Part shown: piece after piece, positions 14,881-25,524 of the stretch
Numbering within the stretch: position 1 is the stretch's first letter
How the letters are laid out: the number at the start of each line of letters is the position of its first letter
Position numbers and translations under genes: made by a program
Assembly: GCA_021846225.1 (NCBI GenBank)
Contig: JAJZCG010000002.1
Location: 35,940-99,939, forward strand
Direction: 5' to 3'
DNA length: 64,000 nucleotides
Origin: Pseudomonadota bacterium
GTDB lineage: Bacteria; Pseudomonadota; Alphaproteobacteria; Acetobacterales; Acetobacteraceae
The notes under the pieces: generated by a model
Seen by the model: only the letters and a program-made list of their open reading frames with translations
What the model was told of the DNA's origin: nothing
The model's database searches: none

Positions 14881-15375
14881 CTAAACCATTTCCGCCGCGG
14901 GGATTTGTTCCAGCATTGTATTATCAGGCATGAGCGCGGGGATGGAGAGCGTGCTGATGATGCGGCTATCGAGCATGATCAGCCCTTCAATGAATTCGCG
15001 CGGGTTGTTGCTGCCGGTTTGAGGGATATCCTGGCGCATGTCATCCGTGACCGTTATGATATCGCACACCGCGTCCACCAGCAGGCCGGCGGTGTTCGTG
15101 CCGTCTTCCACCACAACCACCACCGAGGCGGCATTGGGCTCCTGCGGCGGCAGGCCGAGGCGCTCGGCAAGGTCGATCACCACCAGCACGGTGCCGCGCA
15201 GGTTGATCATGCCCTTGATGTAGGAGGGGGCGTGCGGCAGGTGGGTGGAGGCGATCCAGCCGCGGATTTCACGGATGGAGCGGATGTCCATGGCGAATTC
15301 CTGGGCACCGAGGCGGATTGAAAGAAGCTCGCTGCGGCGCTCAGGCTGGGCGGGGGTGCGATAGATCTGACTCAT
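14881..15375 (-). CDS. cheW: Chemotaxis coupling protein
   Basis: [24 protein letters not shown]...[24 protein letters not shown]. Confidence 0.93.
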
Positions 15376-17291
15376 GGCTGGAACTCCTCCATATCGTGAT
15401 CCGCCAACTGGGGAATTTTGCCCTTGCGGGCCAGCGGCACGAAGCGGCCGGCCGGCGCGGCAGATTTGCGGGTTGGCGGTGGTTCGGCGTGCCGGGTTTC
15501 AATGTGCCCGGTCTGGAACTGGGCGACCAGGCGGGCGAGTTCCTCGGCCTCGGCGGCGAGGCTGTGGCTGGCGGCGGTGGTCTGCTCAACCATGGCGGCG
15601 TTCTGCTGGGTGACCTTATCCATCTGGTTGACGGCGGCGTTCACCTCCGCAAGGCCGGTTGCCTGCTCCTGCGCGGAGGCGGCGATTTCGCTCACCAGCC
15701 TGTTCAGCTGCTCCACCTGCGCCACGATGCGCCCCAGCGCCTGGCCGGTTTCGCCGACCAGCCGCACGCCGGTGGCGACCTGCTGGCCGGAGGCTGAGAT
15801 GAGGGTTTTGATCTCCTTGGCGGCGTCGGCCGAGCGTTGCGCCAGGGCGCGCACCTCGGTTGCCACCACGGCGAAACCGCGCCCCGCGTCCCCTGCCCGC
15901 GCCGCCTCCACCCCGGCGTTGAGCGCCAGCAGATTGGTCTGAAAGGCGATCTCGTCGATCACCCCTATGATGTTGCCGATCTGGCGGGAGGATGTCTCAA
16001 TCCCCGACATCGCGGTGACCGTGTCGCTCACCACCGCGCCGGAGCGCTCGGCATCGGCACGGGCGTTGCCCGCGACCTCGCGCGCCGCATTCGCGCCCTC
16101 GGAGGTTTTGCGAACCGTGGCGGTGATCTCATCAAGCGCGGCGGCGGTCTCCTCCAGGCTGGCGGCCTGCTGCTCGGTACGGTGGGAGAGATCATCCGAG
16201 GCCTGGCGGATCTCGCCCGCACCGGCGCGCACGCCATGCGTGTTGCGCGAAATGGAGCCAAGGGTCTGTAGCAGTTTCTCCATCGCGTTGTTGAAATCAT
16301 GCTTCAAGGTTTCGTAGGCAGGGGCAACATGTTGCTGGAATCGCGCGGTGAGGTCGCCAGCGGCGAGGCCCGAGAGTGCCACGGCCAATCCCTCCACCAC
16401 CAATTTCTGGTCCTGCCCGGCGGCGGCGAAGGCGGCTTCCATCTCTTGCAGCCTGCGGTCCAGCTGATTTTGGAACTCCTTGGCAGCGGCCTCAAGTTTC
16501 AGGCGCTCCTGGGCATTCTCCTTGAATACCTGCACGGCATCGGCCATGGCGCCGATCTCGTCGGAACGGCCGATGCCGGGGATGGTTACCGTCAGCTCCT
16601 GGTGCGCCAGCTGGTTCATGGCGGCGGTCATCTGGCCGATCGGCAGGGACACGCTTTTGTTGACCAAAGCGCCGATCAACAGCGTGCCAAGCGCCATGAG
16701 GCCCAGAACAACGGCGATGAGGAAGGAGCTGGATTTTGCGGCGTGATCCGCGGCGGCGGAAAGCTGGGCTGCCTGGGTATCGTTATAGGCGAAGTCATCG
16801 TTTATGCTGGCCGTGAAATCGTTCATCGCTGATTTTATGCCGCTGTTGAAAACATTTGTGACGCCGGCAGAGTTACCCGCCGTGTACAACGCGGATACTT
16901 GCTGCACGGAATTCTCGAGCCGTATGAACGCCGCGTTGAAGGCGTTGCCATCGGCGGTTTCGCGGCCAGGGTCCATGGTTGCATGATATTCAGCCCACTG
17001 GTTCTGGTAATCCCGTTCCACCTGGGTGGTCTGATTAAACAAAATGGCGGCCATGCCGGTATCACTCTGGTTCGCGGCGATGGCGGCGATGGCCACCAGT
17101 TGGTGCGCATCCTTGGACATGACGCCAAGCGGTTGAATCTGCGCGGTGTTTGCCGCCAGGGCCCGTGCCTCAGCGTTCAGCAGCGTGACCCTGGAGATGG
17201 AGAAAATGCCAAGAGCAACGGTGAAAAACAGAATTGCAGCGAATGCCGCCACAACCTTGTTGCGGATTGAAAGATTGTTGAAGGCGTTCAT
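15372..17291 (-). CDS. Methyl-accepting chemotaxis protein
   Basis: N-terminal TM, periplasmic helical sensor, second TM, HAMP, and signalling hairpin [50 protein letters not shown]. Confidence 0.95.
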
Positions 17292-17363: not shown

Positions 17364-17741
17364 TTAGAACATCTCCAACTCGCCGGATTGGCGCGAGAGC
17401 TCATCAGGCACTGGCGCGCCTTGCAGGCGGTAGGCAAGGTCTGACAAGGTGATGTGATGCAGCGCGGTCTGCGAATTCACCCGCCAATCCTCGGGCAGAA
17501 GCCGGCCGATGGTGAGAACGTATTTGGATAAGGCTGAGAGGCGCTGGGAAAGCAGGTCCAGCGTTTGGACATTGCGGTGGCAATCAGGATCGTTGGCGAC
17601 GCGCAGCAGCGCGGGGCTGAGCGAGGCCTGGAACTGGTCCGTGAAGCGCCCGAGTTCATGAAACTCCTCGCCCAGGGCTTCCAAGATTTCCGCCAGTGGC
17701 GCGTGATGGCGTTCATCCTCGCAGGTTCGGCTTTCAACCAT
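17364..17741 (-). CDS. Small helical protein of unknown function in the che operon (candidate CheZ/CheT-like phosphatase)
   Basis: 125 aa MVESRTCEDERHHAPLAEILEALGEEF...NVQTLDLLSQRLSALSKYV...GELEMF, co-directional between cheD and the MCP gene. Carries a DxxxQ motif. Confidence 0.7.
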   Translation of the reverse strand: MVESRTCEDERHHAPLAEILEALGEEFHELGRFTDQFQASLSPALLRVANDPDCHRNVQTLDLLSQRLSALSKYVLTIGRLLPEDWRVNSQTALHHITLSDLAYRLQGAPVPDELSRQSGELEMF

Positions 17742-17754
17742 GCTGTTTCTCCTG

Positions 17755-18336
17755 CTAAAAAAGTTCCACAGTTCCCTGGCCCGGAGGCGTGGGCGGCACC
17801 GGGCGGGTGCTTTCGGCCCGCATGATGGATGCGGTTTCCTTCGCCAGCAGCACCTGCCGGGCACGGCCAGTGACAGGCCAGAACTGGATGCGCCGCCCTT
17901 GCTCGCCGCGCAGGCTGCCGCCAGCAATGGCGATGCCCTCGGCCTTGAGAAAACGTTCGGCGAAGGTTGCGTTCAGCTCGCCGATATCGGTGAGGCCCTT
18001 GATCATGCGCGCGCCGCCGAAAAGCTTTGCTTGCAGCCGGTGGCGCTGGGCGCCGCGCCGGAGCAGGCCGTTGACCAGCAGCTCCATGGCATGCACGCCA
18101 AAGCGCATGGCGTCGCCCTCCAACATGCGTTGTTGGGACCCCGCATCAGTCCCCGGCAGCAAAAAATGGTTCATGCCGCCCAGGCCGATGGTTTTGTCCC
18201 AGATACAGGCGGAGATGCAGGAGCCGAGGATGGTGGTGAGCACTGTGTTGGGATTATCATCCACATATTGTTCGCCCTGTACGATATGAATCTTTTTCTC
18301 AGCGGCCGGTGCGGAGGGATGCAGGAGCGTAATCAT
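17755..18336 (-). CDS. cheD: Chemoreceptor glutamine deamidase
   Basis: [48 protein letters not shown] at 18336 overlaps the cheB stop. Confidence 0.94.
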
Positions 18337-19364
18337 GATATTTTTTTCCTGCATGTGGCGTTGGTGCTTAAAAGCAAGCGTTCGGCGATGCGCTCCAGTG
18401 GGAGTTGCAGCGTGACCCCGCCGATCTCGAAGGCGGCTTTGGGCATACCGTAGACGACGGAGCTGGCTTCGTCCTGGCCGATGGTTTCGCAACCAGCCTG
18501 GCGCAAGGCGAGCAGGCCTTCTGCGCCGTCGCGCCCCAACCCGGTGAGGATGACGCCGATCGCACGGTCATGAAAACAGCGCTGGACGGAATGGAACATC
18601 ACATCCACCGAGGGGCGATGACCATTGACGCGCTCGGCCTCGCTAAGATGGATGCGCGGTGTCGCGATGCCGGAAATTTCCAGATGCGCGCTGCCGGGGG
18701 CGAGGTAGATCTGCCCGGATTTCAGCAACGCGCCTTCCGCGGCCTCGCTCACCTCCGGGGCGCAGAGCTTGTTCAGCCGCGCGGCAAAGCTTTTGGTGAA
18801 GGTGGCCGGCATGTGCTGGCTGATGACCGTGGGCGGGCAGTTGGCCGGGAATTTGCCCAGGATTGTCAGCAGCGCCTCGACGCCGCCAGTGGAAGAGCCG
18901 ATGGCGATGATCCGGCCGTCTGGCGTATAAGCGGCGGTTGAGGGGCGCGCGGGCCTTGCCGCGAGCCTGGGCTGCCGGCGCGACAACGCCGCCGCCCTCA
19001 CCTTCTCGGCCAGTTGCTCAAAACTGTTCTGGTTGAAGGAGGAGGGTTTCGCCACACAGTCGAACGCGCCGATTTCCAGCGCGTGCAGGTTCACATCGGC
19101 GCCCGCCTGGGTGAGGGTGGAGACCATGATGACTGGTGTGGGCCGCAGGCGCATGATTTTTTCCAGAAAGTCCAGGCCGTTCATGTTCGGCATTTCAATG
19201 TCGAGCGTAATGACATCAGGCGCGAGCGCCTTGATGGCTTGGCGCGCCTCATGCGGGTCCGCGGCCTGGCCGACGACCTCGATGAATGGGTCAGCGCGCA
19301 AGGTGGCGGTGATGAGGCCGCGCATGGTCGCGGAATCATCGACGACCAGAACGCGAACGCTCAT
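18333..19364 (-). CDS. cheB: Protein-glutamate methylesterase
   Basis: Receiver domain [16 protein letters not shown]..., then [46 protein letters not shown]. Confidence 0.96.
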
Positions 19365-20263
19365 GGCTGGTCCCTCCTGGCGGCGCGGGGGCGGTAGATG
19401 GTGATGCCGTCGCTTTGCAGTCCGGCTTCGGCGGGGCCGCTCACGCGCTCGGAATGGCCGATATACAAGGCGCCGCCGGGAGCCAGCAGCGGCGCGATGC
19501 GCGTCCAGATTTTTTCCTGCGTATCGTTTTCGAAATAAATTACCACGTTGCGGCAGAAAATAACGTCGAACGTGCCGCGCATCGGCCAGTTGCCGATGAG
19601 GTTGAGCCTGCGGAACTTCACCAGCGCGCGGGCTTCATCGGCGATTTGCTGACGGCCCTCCCTGGGGGAGGAAAACCAGCGGCTTCGCAGCGGATCGGGC
19701 ACGGCATCCAGCAGTGAACTCTCGTAAATCCCGGCGGCGCCAAGAGCCAGCATGTTGGCGTCAATGTCGGTTGCGAGGATGCGGATGTCATACTTCACGG
19801 CATCGGGCAGCATGGATAGCAGGGTGAGCGCGATGGAGTACGGCTCCTGCCCGCTGGAGCAGGCGGCCGACCACAGGCGCGCGGCGCGGCCCTGCTTGAC
19901 GCGTGTTATCAACTCCGGGAGAATTTTTGTTTTCAGATGTTCGAAATGATGCGGCTCGCGATAGAAGCGGGTGACATTGGTGGTTAACGCCGCGATCATG
20001 TTCTGGCGCTCGCCCGCGCCGGAGGGACTCTCAACAAGGCGGCAATATTCGGAAAAACTGCCCAGACCCAGGAGCCGCAAGCGTTTGGCGAGGCGCGAAT
20101 AGACCAGATTGGCCTTGTTGCCAGAAAGGGAGATCCCGGCCTCGGACATCAGCATGCCGGCAATGGCGGTGAAGTCGCGCTGGGTCATCAGGAATTCACC
20201 GGTTTCGGTGATGCCTGCTGAGGGTTTCATGCCGTTGCCTGGCGCGTTCATGTTCAGGCTCAC
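19361..20263 (-). CDS. cheR: Chemotaxis protein methyltransferase
   Basis: [56 protein letters not shown]. Confidence 0.96.
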
Positions 20264-20724
20264 GCGGCTTCCATCTCGCCCTGAGGCAGAACGTGATCGA
20301 GCGAGATCAGGCTGATCATGCGGCCATCGACGGGGAGCAGGCCCTTGACGAAGGTTTTCACCAGATCGGAGGAGACATCGGGCGTGGGCTGGATGTTGGA
20401 ATCTTTGGCGGTGAGAATGTCTGACACCGCATCAACCAGCAGGCCGATCTGCTGATGCGCGATCTGCACCACGATGATGACGTTGCGCGCGCTGGGCTCG
20501 TTGCTCGGCAGACCCAGGCGCACGGCCAGTTCCACGATCGGCAGCACGGCGCCGCGCAGGTTGATGACGCCGCGCACATAGCGCGGGCTGCGGGGCAGCG
20601 CGGTGGCCACGGTCCAGCCGCGGATTTCGCGCACCGCCATGACGTTGATGCAAAATTCCTGACGCCCGACGCGAAAGGCGATCAACTCACGAACGCTGGC
20701 ATCACTATTGGTAGATTGACCCAT
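20260..20724 (-). CDS. cheW: Chemotaxis coupling protein
   Basis: [24 protein letters not shown]...[24 protein letters not shown]. Confidence 0.94.
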
Positions 20725-20727
20725 GGT

Positions 20728-22842
20728 CTAATGCGCCTCCAGCACGGATGGTTCAGGACGGCTAAGCTCACTGCGCGTGGTTTTCACCACCGCATCGACA
20801 TCGAGGATTAGCGCCACGCGGCCATCACCCATGACGGTGGCGGCGGCGATGCCGGGAACGGCGCGGTAATTGGCCTCCAGGCTTTTGATGACAACCTGGC
20901 GCTGACCGTGGATGGCATCGGCCAGCAGCACGGCGCGCACGCCGCCCTCGCCTTCCACCAGCAGGGCCACCGACTGGTCCGGCTCGACGAATTCATCGCT
21001 ATAGCCAAGGGAGGCGGCGACATCGACCATCGGCACATAACCGCCGCGCAGGCGGATGACGTTGATCTCGCCATCGAGCGGGAATACGTCCGCCGCCTTG
21101 GGCTTGAGCGTTTCAACGATGGCGCCGAGCGGGATGATGAGCGTGTGGCCGCGCGCGGAGATGACCATGCCGTCCAGCACCGCCAGGGTGAGCGGCAGGC
21201 TAAGGGTGAAGGTGGAGCCATGGCCGGGGCGCGAGGAGATGGAGATGCGCCCGCCGAGCGCCGCCACGGATTGGCGCACCACATCCATGCCGACTCCACG
21301 GCCCGAAATGTCGGAAACCGTGCTGGCTGTGGAGAAGCCCGGCAGGAAGATCAGATTGTCGATCTCATCATCGGTGAGCGCGGCGTCCGGCGAGATCAGC
21401 CCGTTCTCAATGGCTTTTTCCTTGACGCGGGCGCGGTTGATGCCGGCGCCATCGTCGGAGACTTCCAGCACAATGCGCCCCGAGCGGTGCAACGCGGTGA
21501 GGCGCACCAGACCTTCGGCCGGTTTGCCGGCGGCGAGGCGCTTTTCGGGGGATTCCAGCCCATGGTCGATGGCGTTGCGGATCATGTGGGTCAACGGATC
21601 GGCGATGCGCTCGATGACGGTTTTGTCCACCTCGGTGCCTTCGCCCTCGGTGACAAGGCGCGCCTGCTTGCCGGTTTGCGCCGCAACCTCGCGCACCAGG
21701 CGCGGCATGCGCTGGAACACAGAGCGCACCGGCTGGGCGCGGATGGCCATCACGCTGTCCTGAATCTCGCGCGTTAAATGCTCAAGCTCCTCCAACGCCA
21801 TGGCGACGCCAGAGGCGCGCGCGATGCCCGCCTCCAGCACGCGCTGACTCAGCATCGCCTCGTTGATGACGAGTTCGCCCACGAGATCTATCATGCGGTC
21901 CACCCGGTCGAGATCCACACGGATGGTGGCGCTGACTGCCGCGGCGCTCTCCGCCTTGGCGGCCATGACCTCCACGGGGCTTTGCTTTGCCACGGGTGCG
22001 GGCGGGGGTTCGTGATGCTCCGGCTCGGGCGGGGCGAGCGGTTCTTCCTCATCAAACACCGGCGGGGGGAAGAATTCAAAAGAGAAGCCGTTATCGCCGG
22101 TGATGACGTCTCCCGGTTTGAGCGATGGCTCGGCCGGGGTGGCGGCGGTGATCTCAAGATGGCAGTCATCCTCGACGAATTCGAAGACGTTGCGGATTGC
22201 CTGCTCGGCGCAGTCAGCTTCCAGCGTGATGTTCCAGGTGAGATAGGCGCCTTCAGGGTCCATCTCGGAGAGTTCGGGCAGGTTGGTTGTATCCACCGTG
22301 ACCTCGATGGGGCCGAGCCGGCGCAACTCGCGCAGCAGCAAGGCGGTTTCGTTGGCTTTGGCGTAGAGCGGGGGGGTTGGGGTGAAGCTGATCTGCCAGG
22401 CGGGCACGGGCGCGGCGGCCGCGGGCTGTGACTTTGGCGGGGGCGGCGGCTCGTGGCCAAGATTGCTGATCTGGGTGAATTCCACGACCAGAGCGGCGGT
22501 GCGGGTTTCATCCACCGCGCCGTTATCACGCGCGGCGCGCACCAGATCGGCCAGAACATCGGCCGCGCGCAGCAGCAGGTTCATGACGCCGGGGCCGGTG
22601 GCGAGCGTGCCCGAACGCACCTGATCCAGCGCGGTCTCGAACACATGGGCGAAGCGAACCAGCGCATCCAAGGCAAAGATGCCCGCCCCACCCTTGATGG
22701 AATGCACCGCGCGGAAAACCGCGTTCACGGTTTCCGCCTCGGCGGCGCCGCTTTCCATCAGGATCAGCCCGGCTTCAAGCTCGGCGAGCTGTTCCTCACA
22801 CTCCTGGAAAAATGTTTCGCGGATGGCTGCCATCGGGTCCAA
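20728..22842 (-). CDS. cheA: Chemotaxis histidine kinase
   Basis: Hpt motif FRAVHSIKGGAGIF, kinase motifs MIRNAIDHGLE, DDGAGI, SGRGVGMDVVR, C-terminal CheW-like regulatory domain. Confidence 0.96.
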   Translation of the reverse strand: MDPMAAIRETFFQECEEQLAELEAGLILMESGAAEAETVNAVFRAVHSIKGGAGIFALDALVRFAHVFETALDQVRSGTLATGPGVMNLLLRAADVLADLVRAARDNGAVDETRTAALVVEFTQISNLGHEPPPPPKSQPAAAAPVPAWQISFTPTPPLYAKANETALLLRELRRLGPIEVTVDTTNLPELSEMDPEGAYLTWNITLEADCAEQAIRNVFEFVEDDCHLEITAATPAEPSLKPGDVITGDNGFSFEFFPPPVFDEEEPLAPPEPEHHEPPPAPVAKQSPVEVMAAKAESAAAVSATIRVDLDRVDRMIDLVGELVINEAMLSQRVLEAGIARASGVAMALEELEHLTREIQDSVMAIRAQPVRSVFQRMPRLVREVAAQTGKQARLVTEGEGTEVDKTVIERIADPLTHMIRNAIDHGLESPEKRLAAGKPAEGLVRLTALHRSGRIVLEVSDDGAGINRARVKEKAIENGLISPDAALTDDEIDNLIFLPGFSTASTVSDISGRGVGMDVVRQSVAALGGRISISSRPGHGSTFTLSLPLTLAVLDGMVISARGHTLIIPLGAIVETLKPKAADVFPLDGEINVIRLRGGYVPMVDVAASLGYSDEFVEPDQSVALLVEGEGGVRAVLLADAIHGQRQVVIKSLEANYRAVPGIAAATVMGDGRVALILDVDAVVKTTRSELSRPEPSVLEAH

Positions 22843-22859: not shown

Positions 22860-23225
22860 TCAGGCCGCGACGCGGCGAATGGCTTCAACCAGCTTGATGG
22901 GATCGAAGGGTTTGACGATCCACCCGGTGGCGCCAGCCGCGCGGGCGCGGTTTTTTTTCTCGGCGTCAACCTCGGTGGTGAGGACCAAAACAGGCGTCGA
23001 ACGGCGGGTCTCATCGCGCCGGACTGCCTCGATGAAGCCAAACCCATCCATGCGCGGCATGTTGATGTCGGTGACAATGACATCCGGCCGTTCCGTCTCC
23101 AAAACTTCCAGCCCGTGCAGGCCATCCTCGGCTTGCAATACGCGAAAGCCCGCCGCAAGCAGCGAATGCCGCAACATGTCCCGCATCGCGCGGGAGTCAT
23201 CGACTGTGAGAACGGTCGTGCTCAT
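22860..23225 (-). CDS. cheY: CheY-like response regulator
   Basis: MSTTVLTVDDSRAMRDMLRHSL...PDVIVTDINMPRMDGFGFIEAVR...AGATGWIVKPFDP. Confidence 0.92.
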   Translation of the reverse strand: MSTTVLTVDDSRAMRDMLRHSLLAAGFRVLQAEDGLHGLEVLETERPDVIVTDINMPRMDGFGFIEAVRRDETRRSTPVLVLTTEVDAEKKNRARAAGATGWIVKPFDPIKLVEAIRRVAA

Positions 23226-23524
23226 TAAGGCAGTTCCTTGCAATATGTTAGTGTTTTTGGAGCGACGCCAAACAGGTTGAGAGTGGTGAGAAAATCCTCG
23301 GAGCAATCAGCCAGGCTGAGATCCTGCTCATCCGCCGCCCAGGCCGCGCGCGCGGCAAGCAAAACCTGCAGGCATTGCGCGCCGAGACGCTGCACGTCAC
23401 CCGCGTTGAGGCTAAGGGGACGCCCGCGCAGGGTGAGCAAATTCTCCAGCAGGGCGGCGGCGGCTGTAAGGTCCAGAATTGGCGGGAGGGCCAGGGTATC
23501 CGCGCCGGGGTGAATGTGTTCCAT
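23225..23524 (-). CDS. STAS-domain protein, chemotaxis operon
   Basis: LDLTAAAALLENLLTLRGRPLSLNAGDVQRLGAQCLQVLLAARAAWAADEQDLSL, a STAS pattern. TAATG overlap with cheY. Confidence 0.82.
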   Translation of the reverse strand: MEHIHPGADTLALPPILDLTAAAALLENLLTLRGRPLSLNAGDVQRLGAQCLQVLLAARAAWAADEQDLSLADCSEDFLTTLNLFGVAPKTLTYCKELP

Positions 23525-23553: not shown

Positions 23554-25524
23554 TTAGAACTCGTCCCAGTCTTCGGCGGCGGGGGCGGAAGGTTCGGTAT
23601 TATGAGATACCGAAATGAATTTTCCGGATGGAGCGTGGACGGGGATGCGCGATTTCCGGCGCGCGGTCTCCTGGGCTGCGGGTTGGGGCTGCGTCTGGGG
23701 CGGAGGCGGAAGCTCGGCATGGCTGGTCTCGAACTGGGCAACCAGGCGGGCAAGCTCCTCGGCCTCGGCGACGAGGCTGTGGCTGGCGGCGGTGGTTTGC
23801 TCGACCATGGCGGCGTTCTGCTGGGTGACCTTATCCATTTGGTTGACGGCGGCGTTCACCTCCGCGAGGCCGGTTGCCTGCTCCTGCGCCGAGGCGGCGA
23901 TTTCATTCACCAGGCTGTTGAGCCGCTCCACCTGTTCCACGATGCGCCCAAGCGCCTTGCCGGTTTCGCCCACCAGGCGCACGCCGGTGGCCACTTGCTG
24001 CCCCGAGGCGGAGATGAGGGCTTTGATCTCTTTCGCGGCATCGGCCGAGCGTTGCGCCAGGGCGCGAACCTCGGTGGCCACCACGGCAAAGCCGCGCCCG
24101 GCATCCCCTGCCCGCGCCGCCTCCACACCGGCGTTGAGCGCCAGTAAATTCGTCTGAAAGGCGATTTCGTCAATCACGCCGATGATGTTGCCGATCTGGC
24201 GGGAAGATGTCTCGATCCCCGACATCGCGCCAACCGTGTCGCTCACCACGGCGCCGGAGCGCTCGGCATCACCGCGCGCGGCATTGACAACATCGCGCGC
24301 CGCATTCGCACCCTCAGAGGTTTTACGAACCGTGGCGGTGATTTCATCCAGCGCCGCGGCGGTTTCCTCCAGGCTGGCCGCCTGCTGTTCCGTGCGGTGG
24401 GAGAGATCATCCGAGGCCTGGCGGATTTCCCCGGCGCCGGCGCGCACACCATGAGTGTTCTGGGCGATCGAGCCCATGGTCGCCTCCAGCGTTTCCATGG
24501 CGCGGTTGAAATCGCCGCGCAGTTTTTCGTATTCAGCGGCGAAATTCGCGGTCAGACGGAATTGCAGATTGCCCAGGGCGAGGCGTTCCAGCCCGGCCGC
24601 CAGCGAATCGACAACAAATTTCTGCTGTTCGAGAAAGCCGGTTCTGGCCTGTTCATCGGCAGCGCGCTGCTGCTCGGCCTTGTGCGCGGCTTCCCGGGCT
24701 TTTTCCTCAAGGAGGAGCTTCTGCAAAGCGGATTCCTTGAAGATTTGCACGGTGTGCGCCATGTTCCCGACTTCATCCTTGCGGTCACGCCCGGTTACAT
24801 CCACTTGCAGGTCGCCGCCGGCCAGGCGCTCCATATTGCCTTGCAGTTGCTTCAGAGGGTTGATGAGCCAGCTGTTGATGGCGAAGAAGGCGGCGATGAC
24901 CGCCAAGACCAAACCACCGATGATGATGAGGAATGTGAGCATGACGGTTGTGCTGGAACTCTGGTCCAGCGCGGCTGCGGCATTGCTGGCCTGGATCTGG
25001 AGCTTTGAGCGCTCCGCGGTCATGGCGGCGGCGGCGGGCTGAAAGCCGGGCATGCAGGAAGTGATGAACTCCTGCTGTGTGGTCACCTCTTCATAGGTCG
25101 TCGTGGCGGCGATGGCGTCAGTAATGGTTTTGGCGCATGTCGTATTGATCAGGTCGTCGCCTTGCTTCTGCAGGATTTGCAGCGCTGGCGCCTCGTCCGG
25201 GAGCAAACGCGCGGCGCTCTCCAGATGTGTGTCAAAAGCGGAATGGTCCAAGACAAGCCGGGACCCGGCGTTGGTGGTGTTGGTGATGAGCAGAACGCCG
25301 ATGTCCGCCTGCATCGCGCTCATATCCCGATTTGATTGCGTGAGCAGATTCGCCGCCGCGCCGGATTTTTCAATGACCTGCCGGTAGCCCGTGGCGATGC
25401 CCTGCAGCTGCCCGGTTGTATAAAACGCGCCGCCGACACCAAAAACGCCGAAAATTCCCAGGATAACGAGGAATTTTGCAATAATTGGCAGATTCTTCAC
25501 GCGACGGCTCCTTGCTCGTTTCAC
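23554..25524 (-). CDS. Methyl-accepting chemotaxis protein with C-terminal W-x-x-F tail
   Basis: Same signalling hairpin as the 15372-17291 MCP, HAMP domain, C-terminus ...EDWDEF. Confidence 0.95.

Follow-up and report, generated by a model that had tools for sequence, protein, structure and literature searches.

The window, a stretch of 64,000 nucleotides from an Acetobacteraceae genome, carries a chemotaxis (che) operon on its minus strand, and the gene under study, a cheT-like gene, lies between cheD and a gene for a receptor (MCP). The features of the locus, with identities to the S. meliloti proteins where these were compared, are as follows.

14881 to 15375, minus strand: second cheW
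15372 to 17291, minus strand: MCP gene downstream of cheT
17364 to 17741, minus strand: cheT-like gene (P0001), 125 aa, between cheD and the MCP gene
17367 to 17384, minus strand: codons of the C-terminal tail GELEMF, a motif type as in the CheD tail
17544 to 17567, minus strand: codons of Q59-x-x-D62-x-x-x-Q66, putative catalytic helix face (i, i+3, i+7)
17742 to 17754, minus strand: intergenic 13 nt from the cheD stop to the cheT ATG, containing a Shine-Dalgarno-like AGGAG
17755 to 18336, minus strand: cheD, ending GTVELF; PF03975, E = 2e-24; 49% to S. meliloti CheD
18333 to 19364, minus strand: cheB; 63% to S. meliloti CheB
19361 to 20263, minus strand: cheR; 57% to S. meliloti CheR
20260 to 20724, minus strand: cheW; 64% to S. 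meliloti CheW
20728 to 22842, minus strand: cheA; 52% to S. meliloti CheA
22860 to 23306, minus strand: CheY1-type response regulator; 69% to S. meliloti CheY1 versus 34% to CheY2
23225 to 23524, minus strand: STAS protein, CheS homologue; PF13466; 40% to S. meliloti CheS

Two gene starts were placed by homology: the probable start of cheD at 18336, within a longer ORF that reaches 18492, and that of the CheY1-type gene near 23225. The cheT-like ORF runs from an ATG at 17741 to a TAA stop at 17366-17364, with the AGGAG immediately upstream of the ATG, and the codons of D62 and Q66 occupy 17558-17556 and 17546-17544. The protein length, the cheD and MCP neighbours, the D62-x-x-x-Q66 arrangement and the GELEMF tail given in the initial annotation are all as described in the sequence. 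The ORF is a real gene, because all 13 of the Acidocella-type loci keep cheT in the same operon slot, at 63-99% identity. Against nine Acidocella-type loci, most nucleotide differences affect the third base of a codon (for the three positions, e.g. 16/2/52 and 8/3/44).

Apart from the missing CheY2, the order CheS-CheY1-CheA-CheW-CheR-CheB-CheD-CheT corresponds at every gene to the che1 operon of S. meliloti. In the S. meliloti record, the genes are ordered MCP-STAS-CheY-CheA-CheW-CheR-CheB-CheY-CheD-hypothetical-fliF, and the hypothetical protein after CheD was taken to be CheT by its cheT position. The synteny is kept in the 13 Acidocella loci and in about 10 divergent loci, and the window gene is found at the expected place, 3' of cheD, in the cheS-cheY1-cheA-cheW-cheR-cheB-(cheY2)-cheD-cheT operon, with cheY2 absent in the Acidocella lineage. 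The STAS protein, initially held open as a possible phosphatase, turned out to be the CheS homologue of this operon, and that role was dropped. Some irregularities were seen in individual records. Two S. meliloti records titled pSymB (L098, 2.0 Mb; L099, 3.7 Mb) both carry the CheT gene, and in L099 the whole che operon lies beside fliF, usually chromosomal; both records may be mislabelled. In genome G540, CheA is in two pieces matching different parts of the query (L097, 6651-8749), a possible frameshift or assembly error.

Homology searches were carried out to identify the 125-aa protein. Pfam gave 0 families, and the NCBIfam CheT model (NF047973) matched residues 8-109 with E = 1e-6 and 28.8 bits, below the equivalog cut-off of 200 bits. 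That cut-off is passed by 1 of 387 genomes of the class and therefore marks a rhizobial subgroup, so the claim made here is CheT homology and not equivalog membership. Divergent members from other families match the CheT model with E = 2.5e-9 (L023) and 7e-8 (L016). In BLASTP, the S. meliloti cheT-position protein aligned with residues 58-125, from the DxxxQ through the last residue, at 27% identity, with an E value of 4e-7 in a single comparison and 8e-6 when nine operon proteins were searched; the window protein is significantly homologous to S. meliloti CheT, as membership of the wider CheT family requires. Intermediate sequences align throughout between the two proteins. Used alone, the NCBIfam model gave few homologues in the class, and an alignment of diverged members added only three genomes. 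One of the three, L034, was rejected as spurious: its match is truncated and sits in an unrelated frame of 474 codons, and no che genes were found around it.

The window protein and S. meliloti CheT are alike in homologous sequence, in length, in the slot 3' of cheD and in a predicted Q-x-x-D-x-x-x-Q helix, and they end in comparable tails, GELEMF in the window and GDFEAF in S. meliloti; they differ in that overall identity is only about 22-27%, under the equivalog cut-off. Judged by sequence, the window protein is a divergent CheT homologue, so that the family is known and the gene a further divergent member. A putative CheT outside Rhizobiales is a new, modest finding; it extends CheT-type candidates to Acetobacteraceae and to other groups outside the rhizobia.

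The motif by which the protein was first noticed had been described as short and possibly due to chance. This caution was right for the motif alone: DxxxQ was present in 36% of 20,000 shuffles of the window protein, and by itself it is therefore no evidence. Conservation tells more. A genus-level alignment leaves D62 and Q66 invariant along with many other residues. In the broad alignment (A6) of 14 homologues down to 17% identity, S. meliloti CheT included, the only invariant columns are Q59, D62, Q66 and L106; a random draw of four columns from 125 would include both D62 and Q66 with p about 8e-4, so their place among the four is not chance. Q59, D62 and Q66 are likewise invariant in a 20-sequence alignment (A4), in keeping with the wider CheT family, where the DxxxQ is conserved and Q59 with it. 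The search for orthologues without D62 or Q66, proposed initially, found both residues kept without exception, and this includes L114 of genome G031, a short protein missed by the CheT profile and found by its position after cheD, which carries LQVFDLIVQRL (QxxDxxxQ). The residues that would be essential are thereby narrowed to Q59/D62/Q66.

The spacing of these residues, i, i+3, i+7, puts them on a single face of a predicted helix. An AlphaFold2 model from 14 close sequences, of low confidence (mean pLDDT 53.5), predicts helices at 16-49 and 52-80 with D62 and Q66 in the second, and agrees with a helical hairpin. An incidental DxxxQ in a structural helper protein for CheD or for the receptor array would suit both the frequency of the motif among shuffles and the location of cheT, which adjoins cheD nearly always. 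However, D62 and Q66 are invariant while nearly all else varies, two genomes (L031/L091 and L032/L092) have cheT beside cheY2 and not cheD, and CheD occurs without CheT in many genomes, which makes such a helper highly improbable.

The initial annotation had proposed a divergent CheZ/CheT-type phosphatase, and only the CheT part of this proposal stood. The protein shares with CheZ (PF04344; D143/Q147 in E. coli) the DxxxQ in a predicted long helix, the chemotaxis setting and the expected chemistry. It differs in length (about 125 aa versus about 210 aa), in having Gln at the -3 position where E. coli CheZ has Asp, and in lacking detectable sequence or profile homology and the C-terminal CheY-binding segment: there is no Pfam match to CheZ, hhalign of the CheT profile against a 17-sequence CheZ profile gave a probability of 2%, and the tail is G-E-L-E-M-F, common to CheD, in place of a peptide of the DDLLxxL/F type. 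Mostly coiled-coil and designed helical proteins came up when the PDB was searched by profile, with no match to CheZ, and this search was given no further weight. PF04344 gave 0 matches in the window's own genome.

The distribution of the two proteins was also compared. In an Acetobacteraceae-level sample of 200 genomes, 108 have CheZ, 11 have CheT and 0 have both (hypergeometric p = 1.4e-4 for 0/11, relatedness ignored; five of the eleven CheT genomes are of one genus), and in the class sample of 387 genomes the numbers are 150, 6 and 0 (p = 0.05), the CheT counts being lower bounds and the exclusion figures being weakened by relatedness. The genomes sampled show mutual exclusion of CheT and CheZ, which suggests a phosphate-removal role for CheT; genus g279, with one CheZ genome and one CheT genome, looks like a replacement. 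Exclusion would also be expected of a highly diverged CheZ, homologous to that of E. coli, and so would the DxxxQ in a predicted long helix and the hairpin secondary structure of the low-confidence model. In addition, a passage of a published review credits S. meliloti CheT with a DxxxQ motif and a predicted CheZ-like structure (PMC12654446, citing Agbekudzi et al. 2024, 10.1111/mmi.15303). Such descent is nonetheless quite unlikely, given the failed Pfam, hhalign and PDB comparisons and the absence from CheT of F141 and of the C-terminal LLxGPQ...D segment, both invariant in CheZ. By sequence the protein is of CheT type and not of CheZ type, and it would work like CheZ.

In a CheY tree, the operon CheY groups with S. 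meliloti CheY1, apart from CheY2, the CheZ-linked CheYs and E. coli CheY (100/100), with long branches that leave the branching within the CheY1 side unsure. A CheY1-type CheY precedes cheA in every complete CheT operon examined. At the cheB-cheD junction (17755-19364), Acidocella and one related genus (L095, L096) have no CheY2 gene, whereas rhizobia and other relatives (L086-L090, L094) carry one at this place. Compared with the rhizobial CheS/CheY1 phosphate-sink pathway, the window operon has orthologues of CheS (40%) and CheY1 (69%), and CheY2, the phosphate donor of the sink model, is missing. This loss of CheY2 with CheT kept is a new, modest observation, and for the question of the CheT target, the CheY2-less lineage is a simpler system than S. 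meliloti.

The window's genome was at first taken to have a single CheY, but another lies in a flagellar cluster (G000:C78, with flgB, flgC, fliE, fliF and fliG), also on the CheY1 side of the tree. The flagellar-cluster CheY was present in 5 of 5 Acidocella genomes checked and in 2 of 2 genomes of the related genus. Compared with S. meliloti, Acidocella lacks a motor CheY2 in the che operon but has, in the flagellar cluster, another CheY of the CheY1 lineage. Directly after this stand-alone CheY, outside the window, lies a gene for a 148-aa protein (G000:C78:26871-27314, minus strand; L079 6869-7315). It has no Pfam or NCBIfam match, and profile comparison with CheZ and CheT found no link. 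Q91-x-x-D94-x-x-x-Q98 is conserved in its homologues, even at identities as low as 26%, and these homologues lie directly 3' of a CheY in all 17 places examined; they were found in many Acidocella genomes and only in Acidocella, and are absent from some species. That an unnamed QxxDxxxQ protein accompanies the second CheY in many genomes of Acidocella is new, if modest, and the protein is a candidate for a new CheY phosphatase family.

Many alphaproteobacteria have no CheZ, and their signal termination is only partly known. In the window's genome, there is no CheZ by Pfam and no CheY2 in the operon, and CheT is therefore the best candidate for clearing CheY1-P. For S. meliloti CheT, the only CheT with published activity found, the effect is reportedly modest, and its target is said to be the sink CheY1-P and not the motor CheY2-P. 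The review cited above describes phosphatase action by S. meliloti CheT on just one of its two CheYs (PMC12654446). By analogy, the window protein most likely dephosphorylates the operon's CheY1-type regulator. The predicted Q59/D62/Q66 helix would dock on the operon's own CheY, CheY1, in its phosphorylated form; Asp and Gln would position a water molecule to attack the aspartyl phosphate, as in CheZ; clearance of CheY1-P by CheT would then end the signal faster. As a whole, the best explanation, which is held to be probable, is a divergent homologue of CheT, the auxiliary chemotaxis phosphatase of the nitrogen-fixing rhizobia, that clears CheY1-P. Given the modest effect in S. meliloti, the main role of CheT could be something else, e.g. 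CheR binding.

The C-terminal tails bear on this last point. Phe is the last residue of each of the 22 complete CheT tails inspected in operon loci, usually within a G-[ED]-hydrophobic-[ED]-x-F pattern, and the CheD tails of the same loci read G-x-[VL]-E-[LF]-F, as in the GTVELF encoded at 17758-17775 in the window cheD. Four CheD rows from Acidocella loci depart from the pattern because they were extracted in the wrong frame. Across the class, CheD tails of this type are widespread whether or not CheT is present, and CheA, CheW, CheR, CheB and CheY lack the motif. The receptors of the same loci end in x-W-x-E-F, the CheR tether, an example being the DWDEF of the MCP at 23554-25524. Two exceptions, the L114 CheT without the tail and L033 ending in DEIW, make the CheT tail common and not universal. 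The tail motif common to CheD and CheT is a new, modest observation, and it suggests a docking site shared by both, with CheR as first candidate.

In a rival reading, the chief role of CheT would be to scaffold or regulate CheR in adaptation, with a DxxxQ face that binds CheY rather than catalysing. The resemblance of the tail to the receptor tether and its presence in CheD, another receptor-modifying protein, fit this reading, as does the complex that S. meliloti CheT forms with CheR (PMC12654446). It is considered unlikely, since the three most conserved residues form a polar Q/D/Q stripe and not the tail, L114 keeps QxxDxxxQ without a tail, and the exclusion of CheZ suggests phosphate removal. 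Under the preferred phosphatase reading, the conserved tail (G-x-hydrophobic-E/D-x-F) would serve for docking, possibly to CheR, which is a binding partner of CheT in S. meliloti. A wider picture may tentatively be drawn, though it is doubtful in its entirety: Acidocella and the related genus would have lost CheY2, their stand-alone CheYs would all be of the CheY1 (sink) lineage, CheT would be the direct signal terminator, the CheD and CheT tails would dock on CheR or another shared partner, and the second QxxDxxxQ protein would serve the flagellar-cluster CheY in many Acidocella.

Among the receptors, the MCP at 15372-17291 ends in DMEEFQP, past the usual EF terminus, and its close relative in L002 ends in MEEF.
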